64,000 nt of DNA from Physcia stellaris (lineage: Eukaryota > Ascomycota > Lecanoromycetes > Caliciales > Physciaceae). A program made the position numbers and the translations under genes. Each line of letters opens with the position of its first letter. Position 1 is the first letter of the stretch. The DNA is taken from NCBI GenBank assembly GCA_018902385.1, contig JABSSW010000030.1, positions 372,001 to 436,000 of the forward strand, in the 5' to 3' direction. This document shows, piece after piece, positions 20,109 to 41,495 of the stretch. A model generated the notes under the pieces. The model had not been told where the DNA came from. It saw nothing but the letters and a program-made list of their open reading frames with translations, and did no database searches.

Positions 20109-20200
20109 ATCCCCTCCGCATCCAATTAGTGAAATTTAGCGTGTTTTCACGCGATCTTTCCTTTCCCACTTCAATCACCATTACTCCATCAAATTTACGT
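20109..20200 (+). repeat. left terminal inverted repeat
   Basis: About 92 bp that matches the reverse complement of 41403-41495 over its full length with few differences (outer ~40 bp nearly identical). It is much less AT-rich than the island it bounds. Confidence 0.85.
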
Positions 20201-20646
20201 GTATATGTGTATAATTCAGTGAAGAAATTCGATAATATATAAACATACAATAATTGAAATATGATTACATTCGAAATTCGTTTGAAATCACTAAATCATT
20301 TTCAAATGTTTCGAAACGTTTTCAAATTTCTCTATTGATCAAAACACTCGTATAATCATTTTTTCGAATTATAATAACTTTTGAAACATTCATGTGACAA
20401 ACATAAATTCATTTTACATGTCATACAATAATCAAACGTTTTACGACTCGAACGATATTGTATATTGACATTTTTGAAAATAAATGTTTGACGTTTTCGA
20501 AATTTGATGTGAAAATTGATCGAACAATCATTTCACATACAATAGATCGATTTGACACACTTTGACGACTGATGTATGATATTTGAATTTCGTAAAAATT
20601 TATCAATCAATTTTGAATAAATACACGTCGATTTCGATGATCAAAA

Positions 20647-20829
20647 TGTGACGAGCATATTATGTGTTGAAATTCTAATAAATGTTTGAATTTTTATTTT
20701 ATCACATCGAAATTCGAATTCGAATCTCGTTATGATTAAATCTTCTACATATGTTTTGTCAGATTTCAGTAGTTAGTTTTGCAATTTAGAATTCTGTTGT
20801 TTACTATCATCATTGCATGACATTTTACA
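20647..20829 (+). repeat. LTR of element B, left copy
   Basis: 183 bp, begins TGTGACGA and ends TTTTACA; pairs with 39703-39885. Confidence 0.9.
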
Positions 20830-21208
20830 TTATTTTAGACTTTTACAAAACTCATCGAAATATGTTTTCGTACATGTTTCAATCATAATTTGAAACAGAC
20901 AATTGAATCGAGCATTGCGTATTTCGCAACAGAATTTCGTCGATCAAAATCAAATATTTAAATTATCAACGAATTTCGATTTTTTCATTTTACACGTTTA
21001 TTCAAATCTATACATTTATTTATCGCTCGTTTGTGATACGCGAAATTAAACAAACATTCACATTTTTTTTCAAAAAGTCGATTTCGAAACATCAAATTCA
21101 AATTTCAAAATTTTTTCGAAATTTCAATATTTGATCAATCAACATCAATATTCGAATCATTTTCAATATTCGAAAATTCTTTCGATTCATATCTATTGAT
21201 CATTATCA

Positions 21209-21440
21209 TGAGTCGTGCTTGAATAGACGTATTATTGATTAATTAAACGAAAACAATAAGTTTGCAAAAACAAATAGATACAAAATGATGAAATTGTAAA
21301 CAATGTGCGAACGTCAAATTTCAAATCACGCTAATCTCGTCAAAGAATTAAAACATAATTCGATTCAAACATATTTGTTTAATCATTTATCATATTCACT
21401 ATTTATTTGTCAAATTTATTTGTCAGACATGTTCGTAACA
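21209..21440 (-). repeat. LTR of element A, left (3') copy
   Basis: 232 bp; pairs with 27670-27901. In coding orientation it starts TGTTACGA and ends CA. Confidence 0.92.
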
Positions 21441-24400
21441 CTATTTTTTTCTCTTCGCGAACGTCGTCTCGACGATTCGTTGTTGTTGCGAAATTTGAAA
21501 ATTTTGTTGAGAATTTTGCTGATCAAATTGTATGATTGCAAAATTCAGAAATTTCACGATTATCATTTTTCATTTTTTAGTATTTTAATGTCATTTCAAC
21601 GTTCGATAAAATTTGACGACAATTTTTGAAAATATTTTTGACACGATTCAATTTTTCATGCGATGTAAATTCTGACTGTAAATAACACGAAAAAAATAAT
21701 AAAAATCGAATTGTTGAATAAAAATCGTGAAATTAAAAACAAATGAATAAAAATTGAATTCGTGACGTCAAATGTTAATCGAAAATAATTTCGATTAATG
21801 TCAACATGACGATTTTTTTCGAAAACAACGACGATTCGCTGAAAAATTTGATTCGTTGACGACGACTTGAGATATTGAAATCAACGTTTTGAACGATTTT
21901 GAATTTGTTGTCGTGAAATGAATACGATGAAAATCGTTCATCACGTCGCGAACATTATCGAACTTTTCGTTATCGACATAAGTATCGCGTTCGATTATGA
22001 AATCAATTCGATCAATTGACACGATATTGAAAACGATTGTAATGATATCGAAATTTCAAAATATCGTTCATTTTTCACTCGAAATTCTCGTTGACTATGA
22101 CGAAATCGAGAAATTCATTGATTTGATTTTCGAAAAAATCACGAAAATTTTGCGAAAAAATCAACAATGAAACACATCGTAGATTCGCATGATTTTTGAC
22201 AACTCGAATCGATAAAAATTGTTTTTACGTTTTAGTATTTTGTACGAATTTAGTTTTTTGTCATCAAATTTGTCGAATGATTTGATCGTTTTGATGTTTC
22301 GTCGATTCAAAAAAACGAAATTTCTTTCGACGTATTTCACGATTTTTCGATGTTTATTGATTTAAATCGTCATACGTTTTTGAGTCATTTTTGCATGATT
22401 TCGTACGTAATTGAAAATATTTTGCATCGTGTCGATGATATTTTTTGTTTTGACGATCAAAAGTCGCTTTTTCGTTGTAACATACGAAATAAAATTTGAT
22501 AAAAAATTCATACGAAAATGAAAATTCTTATTGATGAAAAATGATGATAATTTTGTTGTTGCAAATATCGCATTGTTGTTTGCAAATTCGATCATGAACA
22601 ATCAAACGTTTTAATCGTTTTGCATGTAATTGCAATATTGTCGCAATTGTCTTTCGATATTTTGATTGATTTTTTTGATTTGTTCATCGATTTTGAATGA
22701 AAAACGATGAAAAATTTATATTTGATGTCGAGAATTTTGCAAAATATTTGTCAAACGAATGATATAAATTGAAATTCTCGATTTGACGTTATAGAAAAAA
22801 ATAGCTCATGCGTACAAAACACGTAATTGATAAATATTTTGATCGTGATTTTCGCATTTGTATTTTCATCGTCGACGATGCAAAACACGTAATGACGTTT
22901 TTATTAAATTTGTCGATTATCGTGCAAATGACGTTGTGATCGTGAACGTCGAACAATTCGATAATAAAATTCATGAATATGTCGATTCAACGTTGCAAAA
23001 AAAAGATCAAAAAAATGAATAAATTTTTCGATTTCGAAAAATTTTAATACGTTGACATTTATAACAATTGCGTACGTATCGACGAACGAATTTACGCATA
23101 TTGAATCAATAATACACGCGACGTATAAAGTTTTTTATACAATTGAAATTTGAATGTTTCGAAATCGAAAATTCATGAATTTTTTTGAAAAAATCAACGA
23201 ATAAAAAAACGTCGACAGACATTCATAATCGATCATTTCGATATAAAACATCGTTTTTTTCATTGCAATTTCGTAAATCGATTTCGTTTATTGATGTGAA
23301 ATTTTGTTTGATAATTTCACGATATATCGTGCAATCATCGTCAATTTTATTGATAATCAAAACTCGTTCGTAAATAAATTCGTCAAATTTTATCGCGTGA
23401 ATTTCGAATCGTTTTGAAATGAACAATATTTGTTTTCGATATTGATGTCGTTCATCAATTTCGTTTTTGAATCGAAAATCAAGCATACGAATCAAAACAT
23501 TTGTTTTAACGTTTTGAATTTCGAATTGAAATTGAATAACAATGTTGAATTTCGAAAAAATTTCTGCTCAACGAACTTGACGAGAAATAAATTTCTTTGA
23601 CGTCATAAAAATTTTCAATTTTTTGTGATCGATGAAAATTTTGATCGATTTTTTGATGTTTTCGAATTCAAAACGTCAATGCTTTAAACAACGAATAATG
23701 ATTAATAATTCTTTGTCATAAATTTCGTAATTGCACTCGATTGAAATCATGTTGCGATTGTAAAAAGCAACGAAATGCAACATTTTTTCGTCGTCATATT
23801 GAAATAATATTTTTGCATTGACGTAATCAAAAAAATCGATTTTCAAAATGATTTGTTTGATTCGATCGTAATGTCGTAATATAGAAATTTCAATCATCGT
23901 TTTCTTGAAAAAATTGAAAATTTTTTCGATTTTTTCAATTCATTCGAATTTCACAAATTTTTTAATCATTCGAATGAAAATTCGAGTTTTTTTCGAAAAA
24001 TCACGAATGAATCGTTTGTAAAAATTGACGAAATTCACGAAAATTTGCATTTTTTTCAAATTCGTAAAACGTTTTCAATTGACAATGATTTTTATTTTTT
24101 TCGAATTCATGCGAAAATCATTTATCGATAATATGACGCTCAAAAATGTCATTTTTTTTTTGAAAAATTCGCATTTCTCAATATTCATTTGTAATTCGAT
24201 TTTTTTGAGTCTTTTCAATATTTTACGAACGTGAACGATGTGCTTTTTTTTGAATTTGCTGTAAATGAGAATATCATCTAAATAAATTTGACAAAAATCG
24301 TTCAGAAAGTTGAATAACAAATCGTTCATGTAATGTTGTCAATTCGCGAATTCGTTGATCAATTCGAAAAATAACATTCGATATTTGTATGATTTCATGA

Positions 24401-27400
24401 AAATAACGAACGTGATGAGTTTTTCATTTTTCTCGTTCATTCGAAATTTGTTGAAAATCGATATAATATTCAATTTGATTAAATATTTGCAATTTTGCAT
24501 TTTGATTAGAATTTTTTCGATTAAAAAGATGAAATATCGATTGCGTTTCGTGATGTGATTAAATCGTCGATAATTCACACACAAACGCAATTGATCGTTC
24601 GATTTGATTGCAAATAAAACGAACGAAACGTATGCAATTTGATTGAATACGATAAAATTTTTTGAAAATTATCTTTCAGATATTTTTTGAGCTTTTGAAA
24701 TTTGAATTCGAACAAAAAATATATTCTGTTTCGAAACAATGAATTGCTATCGCTTAAAAATTCGATTTTGTGATCGTAAAATCGATGCGATGACAATTCA
24801 ATTGTTTTTGAAAATCGAATATCTTTGACAAATGTTTGAAATATTTGAATATTTTTTTCATTATGCGTTCAAGAATCGACTTGATCTGTTCGTGTTTCAG
24901 AATTTTTTTGATCATGACAGCAATTTTCAACGATTCAAAATTTGTTCGCAATGTTTTGAGCGCGAAATCGATTTGATTGATCGTAATAAAAAAACATTGC
25001 ATTTTTTGTTTTTTATTTTGAAATCGACGAATAAACAAAAGAAAATTGCATCAATCATCGCGATATTCATTGAATCGTCTGAATTCAATCTCGATGATGA
25101 AAAAATTTCGAATTGTTGTTTTTTGATTTTTCAACGCTTGTTGCGTTGTTTTTTCAAATTTTTTTTCTTGATGAATGTCGTTTTCGTAATTGCTGTGATA
25201 TCAATTTTTGAACTATTTGATTCGATGATTGACGACTCGCTATCGTCGTTGACGTTCGAGTGAATTGAACATTCGAAACATTTCGAATCGAATATATTTG
25301 ACTCATTTTTAATTGTAAAGAGCGAAAACTTGATTTTGAGTCGAGATAAAATGATATATCGAGATTTTATCATCGCTATATGTTTCGAGCTGTTTTTTTG
25401 CGATAATACGATATCACGACGTCAACTAAATACATTTTATCGACGATTTGATTTGAGAATTTTCAAACGTCGAGCTTGAACAACTTGACTGAATATATTG
25501 TCATGATGATTGCATTTGAACGATTTGAAAATCAATTTATCGTAAATCATGTTCAATATGATTTCATGTTTGTTTATTCACGATTTTTTTAAAATTATCG
25601 AGTGATTATTCAAATCGATGATTAACAAAAAGACGATTAACTCGAAATGCAATTTTATCGTTAATTTAAAATATATGACGTGAATTATTGAAAAAATCTG
25701 ACGATCGTCGAATTCAATCAATGATTTCGATTTCAATAAAAATACGAATTTCATGTTCAACATGTTGCATACAAATTGCGCGATTTCTTTATCAATGAAT
25801 GCATAATCAATTGCATCAATGTTTATTAAAGTTTTTAATTTATGTTTATTATCGTTGAATGATAACGTACAATTGATGATTAAAAATCGTTTAATGAAAA
25901 AATCAAACAAATCATCATTGTGAATAAAGAAAATTTTTAAACATTCATCAATCGCGTTTTTGATGTGAATTATTAATTTTTCGAATCAAAATCATTCGAT
26001 TCGACGACGAAATTCATGTACGATATTTGCATTTTGTGTCAATGACGTTTTTGATGTTTGTAATCATTCGAACATTTTTTTCAAACGTAATTCAATTCGT
26101 CACATGTGAAACATTTGTTCGTGACGATCAGTTTGTCGATCATCGAATCACGAATTTTGATTTCAACGTTGAAATGTAAATGAATTATAAATTTCACGAA
26201 AAAAATCGAAATGACAAATTTCGTAAAAAGCATCGAAATCGAAACGACAAAAATTGATTTGAATTGAAACAATTCAAAACGTTGTTGACGTGTCGCGATT
26301 TTTTCTTTTCGAAAATTCGATTGTCGATTGTATATTTGTTGCAAAATGATTCGAATTTCATCGAACGTAATGAATTCACGTGAATATACATTCATCGTTT
26401 TTTTCAAATTTCAGAAAATTTTGTTCATCAACTTTTCGATTTTGATGATTTCGCTATAATCAATTGAATTGCTAAAACGAAAAAAGATGAAATAAAAAAA
26501 TTGAAAGTTTTGAATATTCATGATCAATGTTCGAAATTGATTACGCATATTGCGTTTGAAATCAGAATTTTCGTAAATAATGTTCAAAAATTTCAACATC
26601 ATATGTCAAATTTTGAAATGATTCATATCAATATCACGAATCGATTGTATGTGATTATCGACATTATTTTCAATTCAATCAATTACAATAATGATTGCGA
26701 TCATGTTCGTGTCGTAATGATCAACGTTGATCGTCATTTTATCGTGTATTTTTGTTTTTCAAACACGTCAAATGAGTTTTATTTCATCGATGAATTTAAA
26801 AGAATTTGAATGTGTTTTGAAACGTCGTTTGTTTTTTTGAAAAAAATTAATTACGTTGATTTTATCGTCGTTTTTTTCATCGTCGACGTCAAAATCTCGT
26901 GCACGATCGCGAGTTTTGATCAACAAAACGTCGTGATTTTTTTTCAAAAAAATGTAATTTTTTTGTTTGATCAAAAATAAATCACGTTGTTTTTCGTATT
27001 CGCTTTTCAAAACATTCAATTTTCGACGAATTTCATTTAATTCGATATTCGTATTGATCAGTTTGTCACGATCGACGTTGACAATATTGTACAAATTCTG
27101 ATATTGAGTCAAAGCGTTCAAATAGTTGTCACGATCGATACGTAATCGATCAAATTTCTTTAGAAAATCGACGATTTTATGATTGATTTATCATTTCAAT
27201 TGATCGATGATGACGATATTCAAAAAATGAATGATTTTTTCATTTTTCATTTTTATGAAATCGATCGTTGATACAAATCGACGACGTTTGAATTGATCAA
27301 CGAAAATCTCGTCAAAAAAATTGTCGTTAATTTCATGCAACATACGATTCACGTTGATGCGTAACGTTTTGAAACGTTGTTTCATCGAAATAAAAAATTC

Positions 27401-27669
27401 GAAAAAATTGTTTCGTGATGATTTCGAATTATAACTGAAAATGAAAAATTGAAAATGATAAAAAAAAAAAAATTAATCGAGTCAATTTTCGTTTTTTATC
27501 GTCGAAAATTTCGTCGTTGTTTCGTCAAAAGAATTTTCAAATCATTTGTTTGATCAACAGAACTTTTCGTCGTTTGTCTCGTCAAAAAATTTGATCGATT
27601 TGAGATTTTATTTTTGAACGTTCGCGTATTTCGACGAGCGATAAAAATTGAAAATTTATTGTAATATCA

Positions 27670-27901
27670 TGAATCGTGTTTGAATAAACGTATTATTGAT
27701 TAACTAAACGAAAACAATAAATTTGCAAAAACAAATAAATACAAAATGATGAAATTGTAAACAATATGCGAACGTCAAATCTCAAATCACGCTAATTTTG
27801 TCAAAGAATTAAAACATAATTCGATTCAGACATATTTGTTTAATCATCTATCATATTCATTATCTATTTGTCAAATCTATCTGTCAGACATGCTCGTAAC
27901 A
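27670..27901 (-). repeat. LTR of element A, right (5') copy
   Basis: 232 bp; pairs with 21209-21440. Confidence 0.92.
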
Positions 27902-27998
27902 ATCATAACAAATCAGCACTTGTCTCGTGTCTCGATGATAAATTCAATAACATTTCGAGTCACAATCTACGAGTCAAAATATTCAATCAGATACTCAA

Positions 27999-28161
27999 TG
28001 TTACGATAAAACGTATTGAATAATAATGTGATGAATAAAGTGATTGAATTGTTACTATTTAGAAGACAGAGTGCGAAATATGAATCAGACTGTCAAAACG
28101 CTAATTCGTTCTTGTCAAAATATTTTGACTTCAGTCTTATGTGAAAATTACAATCGTAACA
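27999..28161. repeat. LTR of element D, left copy
   Basis: 163 bp, TGTTACGA...CGTAACA; pairs with 30050-30212. Confidence 0.92.
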
Positions 28162-28293
28162 AATGTCATCGAACGAAAAAGATTATAACGTTTTCGTTGT
28201 GTCGCGTGACGAAAACATGCGATTCATTCATGAAAAATCTAATAATAATACATGTAAAAAAATAAAAAAACGATTTGTTTTTTCATCAAAAAA

Positions 28294-29433
28294 TCAAGCT
28301 TTCTCGTTGAGATTGCGATCGAAATGATCGCATTTTCGAAAGTTTTTCAAATGACGACGAGACGCTTGACTGAAATGAATCGCTCGTAAATGTCGATGCA
28401 AAACATTGTTCGATTCGAAAATATCGTTGCAAATGCGACAAGTTTGACAAAAAGCGAAAATGACATTGAAAATAAATGAACGAAATAGACGATCAGAAAT
28501 GACGAACAATTTGTATGACAAAATGCTCGATATCTTTGAGACATATGAAATAAACAGACGATGAAAAAATGTTGATGTTTTGTATGATAAAATGATCGAT
28601 TTCTCAAATCATTTGCTGAAAATAAAAGATATGAATTTGACACGATTCGATTTCGCGAACGTATGTTGTTGAAAATTTTTCGAATTTGACGTTTTCGAGT
28701 TTTGACTAATCGAAATGCTCTGATTGATCGCAAACTTGAAATAGAAAATGATTTTCGATTGATGAAAAATCTTTGAAAAAAATTCGATCTTTTTGATGTG
28801 TTATAAATTTGATTTCGTGCGTTTTTCAACAAACATCTCGAACAAATCGTCGATAATGAAATATGATTTCTGTTCTTGATGTTGATGTTTTGATACTGAC
28901 TTCCGAGAAAAAATAGACGACGAAGTAAACGAACAAACAACTGCTGCAATCTTCAGCGCTATTGATATGATTTTCGATGTAAAAATTGAAAGACGTGAAG
29001 ACTTTGATGCAATAGAACTAGATGATGAGAACATTGCAAACTCGATTGCAAACTTCTTCGCATGATGATCTTCGATATGATGATGAAATTTCGTATTGCT
29101 CGAAAACTTCGTACTGCAACGTTTGCATGCGAAAGTTTCTTGACGTTTTTTATTCATTCGAGTTTGTTCGATTCGACGTGTTTTTCGATTTGTTGTTGTT
29201 GTTTTGCACGACGACGTTTTTCTGCTCGTGTCTTCTCGATGTGAGTTTGTTGAGCGAGACGTGCTGTTTCGACGAGACGTGTTTGCTCGATCTGACGAAT
29301 CTTTGCTTGTTTGACGAAATCGAATTCTCTGAATAGATAAAAGCAGAATCTGTTGATGTCTTTTGTCATTTTCAATTGCATGAATCTCGATAAACTGAAA
29401 AATCATTGATTTGCACTGTTTGCGAAACAGCAT
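28294..29433 (-). pseudogene. C2H2-finger passenger region of element D (fossil)
   Basis: Remnant coding sequence inside element D with two finger-like motifs and a conserved segment YFIIDDLFEMFVEKR shared with the plus-strand region of element B (FIIDDLIRMFREKF). From memory, proteins of this type are widely annotated in Leotiomycete genomes as C2H2-type domain proteins. Here one clearly lies between LTRs. It is broken. Confidence 0.65.
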
Positions 29434-30049
29434 TTCATTATTAGATGCGAATGTATCATTTTGCTCTCGACTAGATGTTCTAGATCGTCGAGAAACTCAT
29501 CGACGTCTCTATAAATGATCGCTTCTTCATCAGAACAGATAAAAAGATTGTTTTCAGAATTTTGAGCGATGACAAAGAAATCGAGATGAAATATGTCGAG
29601 TTCTTGTTGATAAATTTCGATTCAACGAAAATAATGAAGTGAATGCTGAAAATGAAAGTATTCGCTAAAATGATCGAATACAAAGAATATTGATTTCGAC
29701 GAGCTCGAAAAATTCGATGATTTCTTGAAAATGAAAAATGTTGATGAGTTATTACTCGAATAGACAAATTCTGATGTCATTACGACTAGATGCTTGATAA
29801 CTAGATGCTCGAAAGTTAAATTCATTGTTGACTAAATGATATTAATGCGTACTCATTGTCGTGCTAATCGATTTCGCGAAATGTTTTCGATGCGATATGT
29901 GCTTCGCAATTGTAAAACGATAAACATTTCGTCGAATGTTTTGCGATATGTTATTTCGCAACGAAATTAGTTTCGCTCTTCTGCAAAACAAATATATTCG
30001 TTTTGACGATAAAAGTCAAAAAATCGTAAACTTGATGATCTTTATCATT

Positions 30050-30212
30050 TGTTACGATAAAACGTATTGAATAATAATGTGATGAATAAAATGATTGAAT
30101 TGTTACTATCTAGAAAACAGAATGCGAAATATGAATCAAACTGTCAAGACGCTAATTCGTTCTTGTCAAGATATTCTGACTTCAATTTTATGTGAAAATT
30201 ACAATCGTAACA
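30050..30212. repeat. LTR of element D, right copy
   Basis: 163 bp; pairs with 27999-28161 and is followed by CTCAA. Confidence 0.92.
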
Positions 30213-31091
30213 CTCAATATCTACATCATCATTTCTATTGAAGAATTTTTCGAAATTTTTATTTATTTTTTAACAAATCGATCGTCGTTTTTCGCTCTCG
30301 CAATGTTCAAATACGATATTTTCGCAAAGCGATTGCTTATTTTCAAAAATTGATTTTCGAGTTACTTTACATCACAAGAGTTAATCGACGCTGAATTTTA
30401 TCAAAAGCGTAATCTGATAAAATGCTCAAGTTGTCGCGTTAATTTTCATAATGCTGTTTTGATGAATTACAAATCATATCACAATTTCGACTGTTCATTA
30501 ATTGAAAAAATCAAGTTTGAAATCGAATTAACAAAATTACAATCTCATATACAAACGAAAGCAGAAATTTTGACGATCGAATTGTTCAAACAAAAAAAAA
30601 CTCAATTGATTGAGCAAAAAATTCAAAAACAAACACAACGTGAAGTCAAATTGACTAAATGTCAAATCAAATAAGAAACGAAAAAGCAAATCGAATTGAT
30701 CGAACAAAAAATTTAAAAGAAAGTCGTTGAAATTTCGAAATCAACATCAAGATTTCAAAATATCGATATTTTCGATTCAACACTCATATGTGATATTCTG
30801 AAATTCGATTTATACAACAAAATAATAAATTTTTTGCAAAATTTTCAACAAATTCAACATCAATATTTGAAATCAAATGTGTTCGATTTATTGTTCAAAT
30901 GTTTTCGAGATTTTGCATTCGCATGATTCAATAATCAATCAAGTTTCATCATTATACAAAATTTTGATCGAAATTTAACATGTGCATTTTTTATTATTTC
31001 GCTCGAATTTATCGCGAAATCATCTATTTTTATATCACATTTTTCGTCTCAATATCATTTATGCGTCGAATGTTTCGTTCAATTTTCGTCA

Positions 31092-32095
31092 ATGATTCGA
31101 TTTCTAGAACATACGAAACAAATCAATTGTTCGAAAATGATTTGCAAACATTGCGAACAAGATTTCAATTTCAAGAACAAATTTCATGAGCACGTTCGCG
31201 AACAACATATTCAGAAATCGAATTTTCGAATTTCAACATCAAAATTCATGTACAAAATCAAAAAGAAATCAACAATCATTTGCTCGTTTGTTTCGTTTGT
31301 TTCGTCGATCTTTTTTGCAACATTTGCATTGATATTATCAAAGTGTTCACATTTTTTTATTGCGACATTCAATATTACATCAAAGCAAACGAAAATAACA
31401 ACGATATTAACAACACGAAATTTTATATCAAAGCGCGTCGAAATTGCAACGTTCAATTGCTCGTTTGTTTTTCGTTTATTCTTTTTGCAACATCACGAAA
31501 TCAAATATTTTCAACGAAAATTGTTTCGCGATCAATATCATCGAAATGTTCAAGTTTTTCGATTGCGACACTTAATATCACATCAAAATCGATGAAGAAA
31601 TTATCGATTTCATTTTTTCGAACATTTTTTCGAACATTTGTATCAAAACATCAAAAATTTTATTTCATTATCGATGATCTAATTCGCATGTTTCGTGAAA
31701 AATTTAAATCATTTGATTTGCAACAACATCAAAATCGTCGTTTTTTTTTTTCGCAGAACGTTGACGCTCGTCGATTTATTTATCAATCACGAATTATCGT
31801 CTATTTTTTGTCTGCAATCAATCAGAAGACATCGATTAGTCAAATTTCGAAAAGCTCGAATTCGACGAGTTTTCAGCAATATACGTTTGCGAAATCGATT
31901 CGTTTTGTTTTTATTTTGTCAGAGAAATCGATCATTTCATTATACAAAAAATCAAACATTTTTTATATTTCGTTTCAATCAAAATTTTTATCAAGATTTT
32001 TATTTTTGTAATCAAAATTTTCATTCGCATGATTTACGTTTTCGTTTACGTTTTCGTCATTTTTTCGATTTTCGATTTCAAATTATGTTTGTTGC
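31092..32095 (+). pseudogene. C2H2-finger passenger region of element B (fossil)
   Basis: Plus-strand remnant in element B's own DNA with a finger-like motif (CKHCEQDFNFKNKFHEHV) and the downstream conserved segment FIIDDLIRMFREKF. It is homologous in outline to the region in element D but in a different LTR background. It is broken, and its end coincides with the insertion of element C at 32096. Confidence 0.6.
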
Positions 32096-32289
32096 TGTTA
32101 AACGTGATGTGTGAATTGATTGATTTAAAAATTATGAACGACAAAATGTCAATTTATGTACAGTAATTGCGAGTCAATTGTTTGATCATCATTCATTTAG
32201 TATGAAATGATGACAGAATTTTTGTCAAATGTTTTGCAAAAATATTCGATTTAATTTCAAATCATCTAATTTGATTTTGCGTCATAACA
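32096..32289 (-). repeat. LTR of element C, left (3') copy
   Basis: 194 bp, TGTTAAACG...CATAACA; pairs with 39353-39546. Confidence 0.92.
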
Positions 32290-35200
32290 ATTTGTCAATC
32301 AAAAAAGAAAAATCAATGTTTTATTGAATTTCATGTTCTATTATCATGCGTAATCATATCATACATCAATCTATTTTTTTCTCGTTTTTTTTTTTTGTCG
32401 TTGCGATCATCAAAATCATGCGAATGATTGAGTTCGTATTGTTCAATGAAATTTTGAAAATTCTATAATTCGAAAATGAATCGTCATTCGTCATATTTCG
32501 ATTCATAATCGATTCATTTGACTAGATATTGAGTTACGAAAATTTTGTTGTACTTTTTAGTTCGTTTCTCGACTAGCTTTTCAATTTCATAAAATTTGTA
32601 TTGATTCGTATCGTCTTCGATTTCAATGAAGTCAAAATAATGAAAACGCGAACGATTGTAAAAATCAATTTCGACAAATATTGATTCGAACTGTGCAATA
32701 GACACAACGAAATGAATTCGTCATGTTGATGACAATTTTAGTCGATACGCAAAACGTTCGATGCGTTCAAAAATTCGAAATGATTCGCAACGTTGTTGAA
32801 ATAATTTCGAATTTGATTTGTCAAACAATTTGTAGTTTTTGTTGAATTGTAGATAGATTTTTTCATTTTGTTTTAGTCGAATAAAAGTATGACGTGAATC
32901 ATAGTATATTTTGATTTTGACAATTGCAAAATTCGTGACATCGACAATTTTTCGCTGATATTTCATGCGTTGAATTGACAAATTCTGTACATTTGTTGTG
33001 TTAGATTCGATTAAATTTGATATCGCGTTTTTGATTTTGAATTCGTATATGATTTCATTGAATGATAAATTTGTAACGATGTTAAACGTGTTGTTTAGTT
33101 GAATTTGAATTGCAAAGAAAACTAAAATGTAATCGATGTTCGAGAATTCGATGACGAAATATTTGATAGCAATTTCAACAATTTGATTGATTCGTTTTAA
33201 CGAGTCGTTCGTTTGCGAATGATATGTTATTGAAACTAGCAATCTCGTGTCTAATTTGATGAAAAACATCTGTCAAAGATTCGACATGAATTTTGAATCA
33301 CGATCGAAAATTATAATTTCAAACATTTTTCAATCGACGATTAATAGTTTGTTCAATAATGCGTTGATTCATTTCTTCGCTTCATAAATGTCTTTGTCGA
33401 AAATCAATGAAATTCGACGAGAATGTTTACAAATTGCGAACATAACAATGTTCAATTCGTCGAGCATAATTAGAATGAAATCAATGACAATGATATGAAA
33501 CGAACGCGAAACGAATGTAATAAACATGAGTTTTCGTACGATCGATAACGTTTGATTTATGTCAATTGACAAATAAAAAACAATGCTCGATGTATTTTTT
33601 AATTTTTCGCGAGAATCGAAATATGTATAACGTATTGAAAATTTTGTCATAATATCGATGAATTTTTGAATGTTGATTCGTATCGTGAATTAAACGAAAT
33701 ATTTCGCGTTTTACAACAACAAATATACACGATCGACGCGTGTCAATGTCAACATGATATATAATATCATTCGTATTCAACGCGAAATTGATTTTTGTTT
33801 TAAACTTTTTTTGATATAAATTTCGTATCGTCATTTTTTTGCTCATTGACGTTTCGTTTCGCTACGTTGTTTTCGAGCGACGATGAAATTTGAAAATTTC
33901 GAATCGACAATTTTTGTTTTTTCTTTTGCATTCGAATCGTCAACGATTTTAACATTTCGATCATGTTTCGTCATGTCTTTTTTTTTTTTTGATATTCGTT
34001 TTTGATTTTTTTTTAGATTTTTCGACATTGCGATGAGTGTGTTTTGAAAAGCGTAACAATCAAAATTATTCGAAAAAATCGATTTTTTTTCATGATATAT
34101 GTTCAAATCAAATCTATTTTTTGAATTCACGTCGATTTGTTCATTGTCAAACGTTAATTTTGATAACGCATTCGATACAACATGATTTTTTTTTGATTTG
34201 TATTTAATTTTCAATTTAAATTGCGACAAATAAACGAAAACACGAACGAAACGAAAATTGAATTTATTTGTGTTGTTCGAATTCATCGTGATTTGTTTAA
34301 CGATAAAAATATTAACGACATAATTTGTGAAAACAACGATGATATTTTTGATTGTTTTTATTATATGTCGAATTTTTTTGACAATTCAAATTAAATCACA
34401 CATTTCGAATTCGATGAATCAATATTTGATTTCGACTTCGTTCAATATTCGATTTAAAAATAGAATGAATTCGATGTCGTTACGCTTGAATTTGTCTGAA
34501 TTATTGTTTGTTTTGAAATGATAAATTATCGCGTCGAATTCGCGTCGTTTAAACGCGTCGATGTCGATGTACAATTTTCGATCGAAATTGAAATGTATCA
34601 AAAATGAAATTTTGTTAAAAGTTTTTGCAATAATCGATATGATTCTAATTTTTCAATTGAAAAATTGTTCATTACAATTTTTTGCGAATAGATTTTGCGA
34701 ATGATTTTTTTGTTGAACGATGATTGACGTAAAAATAAAATTTTGCGACGTTGTAACGCGTTCGTTTTTTGAACATAAAACGCGACAAAATTTCGTAATC
34801 ATTTTGTTAAATCTAGATAAATTTTCAAATTTTTCAAAATATAGAAAAAATTCAATTTGATTATTGTTTTCAATTTATCGATTGCGATAATAAAATCGAA
34901 AACGTCAATTTTCTGATCAAGAAATGCGATCGTAAAATAGTCGAAAAATGATTTTTTCGACGACAAACTAATTTTATAAATATTCAATCGTTCGAATATC
35001 GAATGTAAATGAGTCATATGTTTTTCAAAAATATTGAAAAAAACGACAATGTCGTTTACGTAAACACGAACAAATTTGCGAAAATTTCGAAAAATGAAAT
35101 CGATTCGTTTTTGTACGTACGAAAATGAATTTTTGAAATTCATTACGACGACGTTAAATTGTTTTTGCTTTCTATGTGAAACGACGATAAATTTATGTTT

Positions 35201-38200
35201 GTTTGCAAACTTTATCAATCATTGATAAAAAAAATTCGCAACGTCAAAAACGAATATGAATTTGCAATCGATTACGATTGAAATAATGTCAAATTGAAAA
35301 AACATTGAATAAAAATCGATGAAAATGATTTTGTTTAATTTTCGTATATTCACGACGACTCGATTTTTGCGTTTTGAATCATTTGATTCAAATATTGTTT
35401 TTCATATTGCGAAAACAAAATAATCATGCGAAATGAATTGATTAATATATTTCATGCGATTTTGAGCGTGCAATTTATCGAAAATTTCATCAACAAATTT
35501 TCGATTTGCGAAATCGAAAAAATAAATTTTTGTTGTTTCGATTTTCGCGTCGAGTTTGAACTCAATTGACATTCATTCATTTTTCGAAATTTTCACTGTA
35601 AATTCGTTGTCGTTTTACAGTTTTGAATAATTCAACGCAACGTTTGCAAATTTAATTCGAACGTTAACGTCATCGTAAACAATAATTTCAACAAACAAAA
35701 TTTTTTTCGCACTAATATTAAAATTTACAACAATAAAATCGTTAAAATTGCGTGCAAAATTGAACGCAAAATTGATCAAATTTGCGACGAAATTAGTCGC
35801 GATCGCATCGTGCAAATTTTCATAATTAGTCGCGATAATCGCGTCAATTGTCAAAATCGAAACATCAAATTTCATAGTTTGTTTGAATCAATTTCGTGAA
35901 ACAGATTTGTGAACATTAGCAGCTAAATGAACGTATTTCGAATCAATTAGATAACATTTTTTTTTTTCGTATTTTTGTACGAAATTCAAACGCGTATTTT
36001 TGAAAATGTAAACATTTTCAAAATTGACGTTGTTAATTTGAATCATTTTTGTATGTGCATCAATGATATGAAAAAATACGTTTTCATTTGAATTTAGTCG
36101 TTCAATTCGCGAAAACGTGAACATAAAATCGCGTTCAATAAATAAACTATTCTTTTCACGTAATTTGAAAAAAATCGTAAAAATTGATTTAATTGAAATT
36201 TTAATAGTCTCGTTGACACGAATCACGCGTTTGATCGACGATTCAACATTAATGACATTTAATTGAATTTTCATGTTTTTGCAATTTTCAATGATAATCA
36301 TTTGTTTGTTTACATTTATACTCATTCGTTTTGAATTCAATATATCATTGTCAAAAAAACTTTTTGTTTTTAATTTTTTCACTATGTAAATTTGTCGAGT
36401 GAACGTGATAATCGCATTTTCGTCATTAATCGAAATTTCGAAAATTCGAAAAATTAATGATATATGATTCGTCGTGATTACGACGACGTTTTCAATGTCG
36501 CGAATTTTAAGAAATTTCATAGTTTGTCGCGCATGAATTTGATAATCAAATATTTTTTGCATCAGAAATTTACAATCGATTAACGACGCATCGCATTCGA
36601 TATCGACGCACATATTCGTGAAACATTGTTCAATGTTGATTTTCATCGTGACGTAACGTCACGAACGAAATTCAAAACTGAATCGCGTATTTGTTTTGAC
36701 GTTTGATTGTATAATAAATATTTGATGATCATGAATGTTTTTCGTCAACGATGTGTCAAATTTAGTCGAAACAATTTGACACGAACGCAAATATCGATGA
36801 AATTTGTTATTAAAATAGAATTTCGATTGACAACGTTTGCACGAATAAATTTTCGTTTGTTTTGCAAAAATATTCACAAAATATTCGAATAATTCATGAT
36901 TCACAAAATTCTCGTTAGATTTTTGAGTTTCGAAATGCTTTTGTCATGATATTTATCATTTATCGCAAATATTTTCGACGCGTTCTCAATATTCATGTTG
37001 TAATCGTTTTGATAGTTTTTTCGTCGTTCGAATAATTGTTTTTTGTTTTTCATTCGCAAAATACGCTCGTCGATATAATGTTTCATTTTGATTAAACGTT
37101 TCATTTTGATTGAAATAAATATTTTGCTTTGACGAAAACGAAAATGATGTTGAAAAATTTGCAAAATAATTATTCAAACGTAAAGATTGCGAATATTGAA
37201 ATCGCGAATCGAACGTGTTTCGATTTTTTTGAGTTTCGTTTTGTTGCGTTTGTTGAAATCGATATTGTTGATTTTCGTATGAACGTTTTTGCATATTTTG
37301 TGTCGATTGTTGTCGATTTGAATAGTTTGATTGATATGAACGTTGTTGAAAAATGTAAACGTTATTTTGTTTTCAAATTGATACGATGTCGAATATTGAA
37401 TTTGACGAGATTGCGAAAAAATTCATTGAAATTCTCGTAATCTACACGCTCATTGATAGCAAAAAAAGAATATTATACGAATCGAATGATGTTGACAAAA
37501 TTGATAATTGAAAACGATAAATGAATTGAAAACGACGTTCGTTTTCGAGCGAATGATAAAATCGATATCGATTTTCGATGTTTCATCATATTTTCTTTTT
37601 ATCATCAAATTGTTGAAAAAATTCATTCATTGTAATTTTTTCTGTCGATTTGATCAAATCTCGTCGAAATTTCAATTTCAATTCATTGTAAATTAAATAC
37701 AATTGCGAATAAATTGACATCATTGTCGATTTAATTTTTTTGATTATAATTTCAACGAAATCGAATGATTCGCGATGTCGACGAACATTTTTCATCGTGT
37801 ATTTTTTTTTCGTGATGATCGTCAACGTTGTCGATGACGATTTTTTTCATCGTTTCAACAACAAACGTTTTCATTTTTTTACGTCATTTTCGAATTTGAT
37901 CAATCGTTTTTGATCATCGTTGATTATTTTTGTGTATCAACGTAACGCGTGATCACGCATGCAATTATAAAAATTTGTTCGAATCACGTCGACATTTTTG
38001 AGCAACGTCATATTTTTGATTTTTTCAATGTAAAAATGAACATTTCGAAAATATGTATTTTTGCTCGAATGCTCGATCGAATTGTCGATAATAACGTTTT
38101 TCTTTTCGTATCACGAATCGAAAAATTTTGTTTTTTGAACATTTCATTTGACGTCATCATCATTGTTAAAAGATTCGATTGAATTTGATGATTCGACGAG

Positions 38201-39352
38201 TTTTGAAATTTTGTTTGAATGTTGTTTTTGATATTTTCGAACAAAATCTGAAATGTTTGTCATTGTTGTTGAATGAATTGATGTTTTGTCAATTATTATT
38301 TTTATTCGTCATGTTTGTATTAAATGCGAAAATAAATTCGATATTTTTTGTGTTTCGAAAAATAATATTCAACGAGATTATGATGTTGTTTCGTCGTTGA
38401 AAAAACGACGTCGACGAGATGATTTGAAATTTACGACGTAAATTTTTCGAAAAATGAATGTAAAAAATATCAAAAAAAATATTTGCAATCGTCGATTTTA
38501 AATCAAAAATGAATGACGTAACACGATCACTAATTCAATCGAGAAATGATTGATTATTTCGATAAATTTCGATGACGATCACGAAAATTTTAAAATTTTT
38601 GCGAAAACGAATTTTGTCGACGATTCATTCTGTTGAATAAACAGTGTTTGTCGAGACTGAATGATTAATAACTGACAACGATGTTGATTTAGAACAGTTA
38701 ATTACGATGTTGTTCACAATAATTTCAATCGATGTATTGAAAAAATAAATTCGATCAATTGAATCGATGTAATCGAATAATTCAAACGTAATGCGAATAA
38801 TTTGTGATGTGAAAACAATCAAAATGACTTAGATGAAAATGATGTGTCGTATTGAAATTTGAAATAAAATGATGATAAACAAAAAAAAAAAACGAATTGA
38901 AATTTTCAAAATTTGTTGAGCAAATTATTTGTTGATGAAAAAACAAATGAAATCGTTGAATTGAATTGCTCGAATCAAACAAAAATTCAAATGTAAATTG
39001 ATATTCAAATGTGTCGTCATTGAGCGATGACAATGCGAATTTTCACGAAAAATCGAAATGCTTTGAATATTTGAATGAAAAATCAATCGTCTTTGCTGAA
39101 AATTGTAGAAAATTGAAAAAATCTGATTGAAATTCTCATTTTCAACTAGATGTCTGTTATTGATGATTGATTTCGATCGACACGTCGAATCGAACGAGCA
39201 ATAAAATTTTCGACAACGACAACGAAAAAAATATTGATGAGCAAATGATTTGCGTACAAAATGCAAAACTGTTCGAAAACTGATACGTTAAAAAACAAAA
39301 AATGATGTCGTTTTGTTTACGTACAAATCATCATTTGAATGATGTTATCAAT

Positions 39353-39546
39353 TGTTAAACGTGATGTGTCGATTGATTCATTTAGAAATTATGAACGACA
39401 AAATGTCAATTTATGTACAATAATTGCGAATCAATTGTTTGATCATCATTCATTTAGTATGAAATGATGACAGAACTTTTGTCAAATGTTTTGCAAAAAT
39501 ATTCGATTTAATTTCAAATCATTTAATCTGATTTTGCGTCATAACA
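39353..39546 (-). repeat. LTR of element C, right (5') copy
   Basis: 194 bp; pairs with 32096-32289. Confidence 0.92.
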
Positions 39547-39702
39547 GTTGCATTTGTTTCGATCATTTCAGTTTTCGCAATGATTTGTTCGATTATTCAC
39601 GTTTTAATCATTGATATCTCTCGAATCGTCGATCGATGAGAAAGAAAAAAATGAAAAAAATGATTAGTCGCTTCGAAACGAAACTGAAAAAACGAAAAAT
39701 AA

Positions 39703-39885
39703 TGTGACGAACATATTATGTGTTGAAATTCTGATAAATGTTTGAATTTTTATTTTATCACATCGAGATTCGAGTTCGAATTTCGCTATGATCAAATCTT
39801 TTACATATGTTTTGTCAGATTTCAGTAGTTAGTTTTGCAATCTAGAATTTTGTTGTTTATTTATATCATTGCATGACATTTTACA
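39703..39885 (+). repeat. LTR of element B, right copy
   Basis: 183 bp, pairs with 20647-20829 and is followed by the target duplication CAAAA. Confidence 0.9.
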
Positions 39886-40329
39886 CAAAATTCGTTTGTG
39901 ATTAATGATGATTTCAAACGATGTATGCATTCGTATTGATCGAATTCATTATGTATTCGATTATTCGTTTGATTCATTTGAATTGTTCGAATCGTGATAT
40001 CGTCAATTCATTTTGAAATTGATTTGCACGATTCACATGATTCATATGAAAATTGTATTGCATTGCAATAATGAACTATTTGACGACGATTTTATTGAAA
40101 TCGTTTCGACAAAAAACATCGATCGTGAATCGAATTTTTCGTGATTTTTACTCGTTTGTTTGTGAAATATATGCAATAATAACAAATGAAATCACGTGAT
40201 TACGTTCGAAATTTTTTCAAACGAAACAATTGATCAATTCGTTCACAATTCGATGTATTTATTGTTTTAAATTCAATTGTGACTTGTTTGCAACAATTAT
40301 TTTTTTTAATTTCAATGATATATCAAATG

Positions 40330-41275
40330 CGTTGTTTCGTACAATGTCACAAATATCGACATTGAAAATCAAAAAAATTCTGACGAAATGAAAATTCGTG
40401 AAAAAATTGTCGATGAAATAAACGAAATGTTAATAACATAAATTGCGTGTAATTCGTTCGCAAAAAATATATATTATTTTTTTCGTAAATGCAAAATTAA
40501 TCGTCGTAACAATGATTTCGATAATGTTTTTTTGCGTTTTCGAATCGTTTTTGAAAATATATCGATCGTGATATCGTTTTTTTATGATATTCGAAATCAT
40601 CGCGAAATTTTCACATCATGAAATCGTGTAAAATGTTTTTATCATTGATCAAAACGTATAAAACGAAATTCTTTTTCGTTGATTTGTATGATAAACGAAA
40701 TTTGTTATTCATACGATCGTGAAATTCGATTGCGAACTCGTCAATTGCAAAATAATTTTCAAAACGAATAAACGAATATAATTGAAATTTGAAAACGTTC
40801 AAAACGTTTTCGATTTTTCAAAATCATGATGCGCATTGTTGTATGATTTCTGTTGATTAAATTCAACGTTCAAATGACGTTCAATGATTTGATATCGATC
40901 GCGATTGAATGATAAATCGTGAAAAATTTTTGAAATCAAAATGATTGAATTGTTGCGTTTTTTGTTAAATGTTGAATCATAAAAATGCGTATAACAATTC
41001 ATTGACGTAATTTCATCATAATGAGTGAATTTCAATTGATTTTTTTGATGTAAATCGTTTGATTGATGTGATGAAACAATAAATCGAATATCGATTGCAA
41101 AAAAAACAAAAACAATTGAACGAATTTTCAAAACGTCATACAAACGTGATTCAATGAAATGATCGATGAATAAATGTAATAGAAAATATATAATCAAATT
41201 CAAACGTTTGAACGATTTTTTTGTTTCAATACAATGAAACATCGTTTTTCGATTTCGAAATGAAAACGTTTGCAT
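40330..41275 (-). pseudogene. piggyBac-like transposase remnant
   Basis: Minus-strand frames at 40799-41275 and 40611-40802, then sequence to ~40330, show piggyBac landmarks. These are a helical N-terminal part (SKIFHDLSFNRDRYQIIERH), a block around the first catalytic Asp (AIDEFAIEFHDR, then KFRLSYKSTKKNF), and near 40340-40430 a block resembling DNxFTSxPLxxxL...GTVRxNAxGxP (YFIDNFFTNFHFVRIF; DIVRNNAFDIS). The frames are separated by stops and the sequence is strongly AT-shifted, so this is a dead copy. The C-terminal part would lie on the other side of the nested LTR element, near 20200-20640, where I cannot identify it. Similarity is judged by eye. Confidence 0.55.
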
Positions 41276-41402
41276 CGACGCGTGTTTTTTTTTTTTTGCA
41301 TCGTGATTAACTCAAATATTGATTCAACAAATGACATGTTGTTTATATGATGTAATAAATTCGATTCAAACGATTCAAACGACGTCGCAATGACCAGAAT
41401 AG

Positions 41403-41495
41403 ACGTATTATTGATGGAATAATGGTGATTGCAGGTGGGGAGGAGAGATCACGAAATAAACACGCTAAATTTCACTAATTGGATGCGGAGGGGAT
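41403..41495 (-). repeat. right terminal inverted repeat
   Basis: Inverted partner of 20109-20200. Both outer ends read ATCCCCTCCGCATCC in the outside-to-inside direction, and similarity stops immediately outside position 41495. Confidence 0.85.

Follow-up and report, generated by a model that had tools for sequence, protein, structure and literature searches.

In canonical RIP, which takes place in the sexual phase and depends on RID, CpA is the preferred target, TpA/ApT goes up and (CpA+TpG)/(ApC+GpT) goes down. RIP surveys, as outlined in PMC12543289, use CpA/TpA indices or report a common CpA preference, and indices of this classical kind were the means by which RIP was found in G. flavorubescens and Cl. 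metacorallifera (PMC7882544). A CpT bias of RIP has been described for Magnaporthe, Botrytis and Sclerotinia (PMC4352252), for Anisogramma (PMC10998396), for the Tad1 family of N. crassa (PMC2621366) and for RIP-capable control fungi (PMC7882544). Here we analyse a 64,000-nucleotide stretch (the window) of the genome of the lichen fungus Physcia stellaris, together with copies of its repeats elsewhere in that genome.

Composition, edges and nested elements of the mutated island

The mutated zone (20187..41393) holds a single CpC (at 28903) and no GpG, whereas its own base composition predicts about 842, a void with a log10 P of about -363 if independence is assumed; CpT/ApG are depleted, and CpG and CpA are kept. 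Odds ratios at 21000-41000, each followed by the value for the flanks, are 0.00/0.96 for both CC and GG, 0.32/1.09 for CT, 0.29/1.11 for AG, 3.12/0.87 for CG, 1.20/1.08 for CA, 1.30/1.06 for TG, 1.50/1.23 for TC, 1.55/1.17 for GA and 0.42/0.69 for TA. In short, CpT/ApG stand at about 0.3 of expectation, CpA is intact and CpG is at 3.1. The CpY-directed depletion that a sequence-only reading had reported for the island is confirmed and proves far stronger than that reading could establish, and its manual count of 22201-22500 is exact (CpG 23, CpA 10, CpT 3, CpC 0; TpG 21, ApG 4, GpG 0; TpA 17). In the gene space of the window only two 100-bp windows lie at or below 36% GC, with two CC and two GG (odds 0.33 and 0.39), counts too few for an AT-rich unique control.

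Neither the island nor its copies show the CpA/TpA signature of canonical RIP. The classical indices are negative (TpA/ApT 0.40, substrate index 1.41), with 0 of 41 one-kb windows passing either threshold, indicating that saturating repeat-directed mutation exists in a fungus that CpA/TpA indices call negative. The index (CpY+RpG)/(TpY+RpA) separates the island (0.063) from the flank (0.91-0.94).

Both edges are sharp: CC occurs up to 20186 on the left and again from 41394 on the right, with CC+GG numbering 10 in 20109-20188 and 0 in 20189-20368. Within the window, mutation is limited to transposons, both edges lie within the terminal repeats of a transposon that is itself repeated, and the unique flanks are normal. 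The evidence for spared tips comprises these two edges, one further edge (C30:449217) and one internal copy (C30:446882); in an edge profile over many copies with a 40% GC cut-off, only 1 of 30 LTR copies has an unmutated flank.

The whole island is carried by a DNA transposon of about 2.3 kb. Its left terminal inverted repeat (20109..20204, plus strand; 84.5% inverted match to 41399-41495) retains CC in the outer 80 bp or so, and its right one (41399..41495, minus strand) is spared from mutation. A 19-kb insertion splits the transposon into a left part (20109..20646), of which 20113-20647 matches C30:448682-449217 at 92%, and a right part (39886..41495), with 89-91% matches to C30:446882-448687; a second copy thus lies beyond the window at C30:446882-449217. 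Inserted in the transposon is LTR element A (20647..39885; LTR segments 20645-20829 and 39701-39885; target duplication CAAAA), in which two LTR elements on the minus strand are nested. Element B (21204..27901; LTR segments 21204-21440 and 27665-27901) has a reverse transcriptase at 24132-24599 with one TGA stop, and 40 near-full-length genomic matches to its LTR were scored (355 candidates). Element C (32081..39549; LTR segments 32081-32292 and 39338-39549) has a reverse-transcriptase fragment at 34802-35218, and a search for its target duplication gave none that was clear. The short LTR element D (27999..30212; LTRs 27999-28161 and 30050-30212; target duplication CTCAA) retains 72 CT+AG per kb, whereas B and C have about 24 and the remainder of A has 29-38, and by this residual CpT it is the youngest insertion.

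Mutation spectrum in repeat copies

The sequence-only reading had counted 46 differences within four LTR pairs, most of them at CpT. Taking the pairs as four ungapped BLAST segments (the pair 20645/39701 belongs to the outer 19-kb element), we count 58 over 797 aligned positions, 42 at CpT, 6 at CpA, 2 at CpG and 8 other, so that the dominance of CpT stands and only the numbers shift slightly. LTR pairs by themselves are a weak test, because the second-best context always seems dominant in saturated repeats, and the spectrum was instead read against little-mutated references. Relative to the least mutated copy, 30 copies of an LTR family are mutated at 581 of 660 CpC, 665 of 1169 CpT, 24 of 990 CpA and 0 of 1080 CpG sites. 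In an independent 3.4-kb element, comparison of the unmutated locus L069 with L075 gives CpC 435/441, CpT 400/459, CpA 29/443 and CpG 16/412, and with L076 CpC 255/261, CpT 238/276, CpA 29/266 and CpG 8/242. The LTR pair C30:437511/443832 differs at 38 positions, 22 CpT and 16 CpC, and at no others. These copy-by-copy comparisons match the repeat-directed C-to-T process with CpY context that had been proposed; repeat alignments dominated by CpA, named beforehand as counter-evidence, were sought among the aligned families and did not appear.

In the less mutated copies CpC mutates at about 1.9 to 2.7 times the rate of CpT, and the lightly affected region C30:450751-455000 shows a partial loss of CpC (odds 0.60-0.62) with CpT near normal (0.93-0.98), which bears out the earlier guess that CpC had been exhausted in both copies of the island's LTRs. 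The CpA rate is about 1-3% of the CpC rate, and in the cleanest set no CpG is mutated, with a 95% bound of about 0.12% of the CpC rate. Decay of 5mC at CpG is ruled out by the same set (0/1080) and by CpG odds of 3.1-3.3. C:G to T:A transitions occur on both strands in 30 of 30 LTR copies, which rules out retroviral-type hypermutation with strand asymmetry.

The pattern recurs elsewhere in the genome. Among 631 low-GC windows of 250 bp from 60 loci, which were picked because they match two LTR families and include those of the window itself, 584 are free of CC/GG, and the pooled odds of the 631 are 0.01 for CC and GG, 0.25 for CT and AG, 1.28 for CA and 3.30 for CG. TGA makes up 250 of 286 stop codons across the 150 reverse-transcriptase matches that were scored. 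Open frames nearly devoid of Pro, Gly and Trp, with TGA as the main stop, are a protein mark by which the system could be sought in other assemblies. Scanning with the reverse-transcriptase alignment found no relative among 506 stretches from IMG/VR, and in GTDB contigs a single 23% match in a Parachlamydia MAG, which was of no use.

Not every duplicate is affected. The reverse-transcriptase locus L070/L071, duplicated at 95% identity over 3.47 kb, is unmutated (differences: CpC 42, CpT 37, CpA 31, CpG 23, transversions 42; CpY 79/133 transitions, a mild excess at most), so some duplicates escape. Canonical RIP affects duplications of several hundred bp and high identity; here the LTR copies examined are mutated and L070/L071 are not. 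A pocket of about 500 bp (C30:442001-442500) is also unmutated despite 39 other matched copies.

Candidate writers and rival explanations

We consider it highly probable that the island records a RIP-like, repeat-directed genome defence with a mirrored 3'-pyrimidine specificity. Duplicated DNA would be recognised and, as the comparison of copies shows, cytosines of both strands become thymine where the 3' base is a pyrimidine: CpC is attacked first, CpT about 1.9-2.7 times more slowly, CpA at roughly 1-3% of the rate for CpC, and CpG is spared in the cleanest set. Repeated rounds would saturate old nested elements, leaving almost no CpC and a GC content of about 28%, and younger insertions would retain more CpT. 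A methyltransferase product, or a stalled reaction, would end as C-to-T. The near-digital spectrum (CpC 88-99%, CpG 0-4%) should make the reading of sequence by a RIP writer testable by CpA/CpY enzyme swaps, and the immunity of CpG provides a natural case for telling RIP from 5mC decay.

RID and Dim2-type methyltransferases, which the sequence-only reading had suggested looking for, are both encoded in the genome, as DIM-2 (C3:340323) and two RID-class genes, with catalytic motifs in place. RID-b (C5:499307) is canonical, and RID-a (C6:791557) is a divergent RID paralogue that forms its own clade in the tree, with Physcia and Heterodermia as sole named members. There is one Pre-SET (DIM-5-type) gene; searches for HP1 and APOBEC (APOBEC_N) gave no match in this genome and none in the control genomes either, and are uninformative.

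A rule that depends chiefly on the 3' base and operates on both strands within repeats points most probably to a DNMT1-family C5-cytosine methyltransferase as the writer. In Neurospora, the DIM-2 route extends to DNA adjoining repeats. That the mutated zone ends within the repeat and leaves the window's unique flanks unaffected fits a RID-type rather than DIM-2-type action; the Neurospora RID route is described as acting on the repeats themselves (PMC12543289). Our first choice, held with moderate confidence, is a RID-class enzyme, RID-a or RID-b; a RIP enzyme with altered specificity, as suggested earlier, is plausible. We put forward only tentatively the wider proposal that some lichen fungi have a second, mirror-image repeat-mutation system, in which RID-a would read a 3' pyrimidine instead of CpA, leave CpG and strip Pro, Gly and Trp codons from transposons, overlooked as standard RIP indices score it negative.

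That DIM-2 is the writer instead of RID is possible, though the less favoured assignment. The N. crassa DIM2-DNA structure (PMC11315935) shows R1145 bonded to N7 of the purine opposite the +1 base and D1173 bonded to N4 of a cytosine at +1, contacts that alone would rank CpC > CpT > CpR. The DIM-2 of this genome retains both residues (L002 aligned to 9bap, with the chain numbering assumed to run 2 above that of the paper), and DIM-2 is said to favour CpT (PMC13297926). Changing the intercalating R1175 to Ala nevertheless kills N. crassa DIM2 (PMC11315935), and the enzyme of this genome has Ile at that position and Ala at N1170 (alignment to 9bap). N. crassa DIM2 methylates DNA in CG as well as non-CG contexts, its context preference having been left open by its authors. 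The absence of spread beyond repeats at the window's two edges is also unlike the DIM-2 route.

The other explanations fare worse. UV damage in a sun-exposed lichen has next to no probability, even though CpC and CpT are dipyrimidines. Its signature is a C-to-T change in a cytosine preceded by T or C, and it would not end at transposon edges; in the 30 LTR copies the dipyrimidines TCA (17/420) and TCG (0/450) are spared, yet ACC (109/120) and GCC (86/120) are mutated, which contradicts this reading. With CCC at 77/90 and TCC at 309/330, the 5' neighbour effect is weak. We also regard as improbable that paired repeats are acted on by a cytosine deaminase outside the DNA methyltransferases, or that CpR is actively protected while other cytosines are attacked; in favour of such readings, the C-to-T outcome is all that can be observed. 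In APOBEC-type enzymes the 5' base decides, contrary to the weak 5' effect, strong 3' effect and mutation of both strands found here. An assembly artefact, in which Nanopore base calling read methylated CpY as TpY in repeats beyond short-read correction, is very improbable. The assembly does combine Nanopore and Illumina data (PMC7513301), and repeats would be the hardest places to polish, but one CC in 21.2 kb would demand miscalls at practically every site, and the old DNA-transposon copies, 8-11% apart, should be mappable. Gly and Pro are also missing from 35 of 39 related reverse-transcriptase fragments of other records (their source species and sequencing methods are not given), which argues against an artefact.

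Comparison with known repeat-mutation systems

CpG-directed decay in basidiomycetes with Masc2/Dnmt1 class IIA enzymes (MIP-like), as treated in PMC4352252, resembles the process preferred here, a repeat-directed CpY mutation, in linking C-to-T to repeats, and differs in that CpG is the least touched context in P. stellaris (0/1080; 16/412; 8/242). With the CpT-biased RIP systems, P. stellaris shares CpT among its targets, the commonest change in some of their alignments; in the cited accounts, however, CpT accompanies CpA targeting with TpA gain or low CpA indices, and these accounts state no CpC-first spectrum. In saturated families elsewhere, CpT may dominate just by exhaustion of the preferred site, whereas in P. 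stellaris the sparing of CpA is measured against little-mutated references.

Among lichen fungi, the RIP described for Cladonia rangiformis (PMC12542154) is similar in that this fungus, also of the Lecanoromycetes, has RID and DIM-2, ripped transposons with sharp borders and young insertions that are less mutated. The GC content of its ripped DNA is about 16%, as against about 28% in P. stellaris, and since the terms 'dinucleotide', 'CpA' and 'CpT' are absent from the main text of that paper, contexts are not comparable. The classical indices used for G. flavorubescens and Cl. metacorallifera score the P. stellaris island negative.

Like RIP in Neurospora and other Pezizomycotina, the process in P. 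stellaris produces C-to-T changes on both strands of duplicated DNA and sharp-edged AT-rich islands of dead transposons, in a genome with RID and DIM-2 genes. Unlike RIP in those fungi, it spares CpA and lowers TpA, attacks CpC before any other context and leaves CpG untouched or almost so. This preference is the reverse of the usual fungal rule, and customary RIP tests would miss such a defence.

Composition and anatomy of the AT-rich island

The island is a 21.2-kb block (window 20187-41393) of ~28% GC between gene-dense flanks of ~50% GC, and it holds a single CpC (at 28903) and no GpG, against 842 expected from its own base composition. Dinucleotide odds in the island are 0.32/0.29 for CpT/ApG, 3.12 for CpG, 1.20/1.30 for CpA/TpG, 1.50/1.55 for TpC/GpA and 0.42 for TpA, whereas the flanks are normal (CpC/GpG 0.96/0.96, CpT/ApG 1.09/1.11, CpG 0.87, CpA/TpG 1.08/1.06, TpC/GpA 1.23/1.17, TpA 0.69). 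This CpY-type deficit (Y, pyrimidine) bears out the sequence-only reading, which had claimed a process like repeat-induced point mutation (RIP) with CpT/CpC rather than CpA preference, and whose hand count for 22201-22500 proved exact on recount. Across four LTR segments, 58 differences over 797 positions comprise 42 at CpT, 6 at CpA, 2 at CpG and 8 others, and open frames of at least 120 codons in 20100-41500, 2,664 residues in all, encode a single Gly and neither Pro nor Trp. Classical RIP indices (TpA/ApT 0.40, substrate 1.41) are RIP-negative in 41/41 windows. Positions 31001-32000 show a strong strand asymmetry (CA 91 vs TG 37).

The whole block is a DNA transposon of ~2.3 kb whose inverted ends lie at 20109-20204 and 41399-41495. 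It was split by LTR element A (20647-39885), which has the target duplication CAAAA and itself received B (21204-27901), C (32081-39549) and D (27999-30212, with the target duplication CTCAA); an uninterrupted transposon copy on the same contig (C30:446882-449217) is mutated too. Element D looks to be the youngest insertion, since it retains 72 CT+AG per kb, compared with 29-38 in the rest of A and ~24 in B and C. The sole remaining CpC lies inside D and could be either a survivor or a later mutation. Parts of D and A form an inverted repeat of 64% identity (28508-29016 vs 31532-32019).

At both island ends, the outermost 80-100 bp of the transposon (20109-20188, 41394-41495) keep CpC even though they are repeat sequence; the mutated zone therefore halts before the repeat's ends, and the flanks are not entered. 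The same transposon end within a larger mutated block (C30:446882) has no CpC; the sparing is a position effect, possibly tied to the way homology is sensed.

Mutation spectrum by sequence context

Because copy-versus-copy comparison in saturated repeats favours the second-best context, we used little-mutated copies as references to avoid this bias. In a 319-bp LTR family (set a; 31 copies, being 30 loci from 40 listed matches among 183 candidates plus the least mutated copy, C30:443832, as reference), mutated cells numbered 581/660 at CpC, with 14 more altered to some other base, 665/1169 at CpT, 24/990 at CpA and 0/1080 at CpG. Only 22 transversion cells occur across the 30 copies, which suggests that they are young. 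The LTR pair of a single element (set b; C30:437511/443832) differs at 38 positions, 22 CpT and 16 CpC, with no others. With an unmutated reverse-transcriptase (RT) locus, L069, as reference (set c), locus L075 is mutated at 435/441 CpC, 400/459 CpT, 29/443 CpA and 16/412 CpG, and locus L076 at 255/261, 238/276, 29/266 and 8/242, respectively; ordinary divergence probably accounts for part of these CpA and CpG values, given 30 and 21 T-to-C differences. In the 237-bp family to which the LTRs of element B belong (set d; 31 of 41 matched places, 5 third-base sites excluded), CC or GG occurs in 0/31 copies; segregating sites are 35 CpT, 19 CpA and 5 CpG, with C retained in 188/1083, 514/589 and 93/155 cells, and invariant sites are 17 CpA, 15 CpG and 1 CpT.

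Relative to CpC, the rate is 0.37-0.53 at CpT, 0.01-0.03 at CpA and, at CpG, 0 in set a (upper bound 0.0012) and 0.009 in set c. The 5' base has little influence: mutated fractions in set a are 0.94 for TCC, 0.91 for ACC, 0.86 for CCC and 0.72 for GCC, and all four NCC contexts in L075 are 0.97-0.99 mutated. Tabulated by both neighbours, the LTR copies compared agree with the reading made from the island, CpC and CpT being changed and CpA and CpG spared.

Extent beyond the window, and escape

In 60 loci around LTR copies, 584/631 low-GC windows lack CC or GG; pooled odds over 157,750 bases of low-GC windows are 0.01 for CC, 0.01 for GG and 3.3 for CG, and windows above 42% GC in the same loci are normal (CC 0.98). 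Among the best 150 of 527 candidate RT matches that were scored, 10 are stop-free; the others carry 250 TGA, 33 TAA and 3 TAG stops, the TGA majority being as expected if TGG to TGA gives rise to most stops. At C30:450751-455000 the DNA is lightly affected, as if caught early in the process, with CC odds of 0.60-0.62 and CT odds of 0.93-0.98; CpC is partly lost there and CpT is near normal, so CpC is lost first.

Escape is possible, via recency, gene conversion or partial action, because some duplicated sequences are unmutated. The RT loci L070 (C5:1166521) and L071 (C12:60312) are 95% identical over 3.47 kb, with 79/133 transitions at CpY, a mild excess at most. Likewise, an unmutated pocket with normal GC, C30:442001-442500, lies within an LTR element that is mutated elsewhere, 6.0-6.5 kb past the window's right end; 39 other copies match this pocket at 76-82% (40 of 82 candidates scored).

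Alternatives, candidate enzymes and known systems

We considered an assembly artefact in the form of miscalled bases, the published P. stellaris draft being a Nanopore and Illumina assembly (PMC7513301, whose main text contains "rip" three times and "repeat-induced" nowhere). Against this, Gly and Pro are both absent, over 5,337 residues, in 35/39 homologues of the island's RT fragment (38-84% identity; from records tagged ena, lgn, jgi or ncbi), compared with 7.5-11 Gly+Pro per 100 in four unmutated RTs of this genome, a difference suggesting that the signature extends beyond a single assembly; 35/39 is not a frequency, as the query favours such relatives and same-species records may be among the 39. 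Gln (CAR codons) stands at 4.3 per 100 in the homologues vs 3.1-4.3 in this genome's unmutated RTs, suggesting that CpA is spared there as well.

A writer of the C5-methyltransferase class is likely, as such enzymes read DNA by a 3'-base rule on both strands. The RID- and Dim2-type genes that the sequence-only reading proposed to look for are present: the genome's three PF00145 genes are DIM-2 (C3:340323-341498; a 609-bit match to chain 9bap, N. crassa DIM2) and two of RID class, and there is one Pre-SET gene. In a quick tree, RID-b joins RIDs from other lichen fungi and from Xylona; RID-a sits apart from it in a 17-row clade (100% SH-aLRT). RID-a has motifs FCGGGG, SPPCQ, EET, QNRRR and GNAVPP and two introns inferred from open frames; its Heterodermia orthologue has a confident predicted fold (pLDDT 85, pTM 0.86), best matching DNMT1, MET1, ZMET2 and DIM2. 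DIM-2 is a serious alternative as writer. In the N. crassa complex described in PMC11315935, the purine opposite +1 is contacted at N7 by R1145, and a +1 cytosine at N4 by D1173; both equivalents are retained in the alignment. However, in the target-recognition loop N1170 is replaced by Ala and the essential DNA-intercalating R1175 by Ile. That mutation does not spread into the flanks favours RID.

Targeting of CpT and a degree of CpC loss have precedents. The parts of the literature consulted describe CpA, CpT and CpG signatures (PMC4352252), N. crassa Tad1 with CpT changed most often and S. nodorum repeats that have lost CpA, CpC, CpG and TpG/GpG (both PMC2621366), alignments dominated by CpT in control fungi capable of RIP (PMC7882544), a CpA preference claimed kingdom-wide (PMC12543289) and, in Sclerotinia, CpA and CpG over CpY (Clutterbuck 2011, as quoted in PMC4188875). 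In the portions of the open-licence literature covered, no spectrum was found that takes CpC first and leaves CpA and CpG alone. Canonical RIP prefers CpA, which the Physcia stellaris island keeps, and the classical indices are negative throughout; we therefore call this process RIP-like and place it outside canonical RIP.
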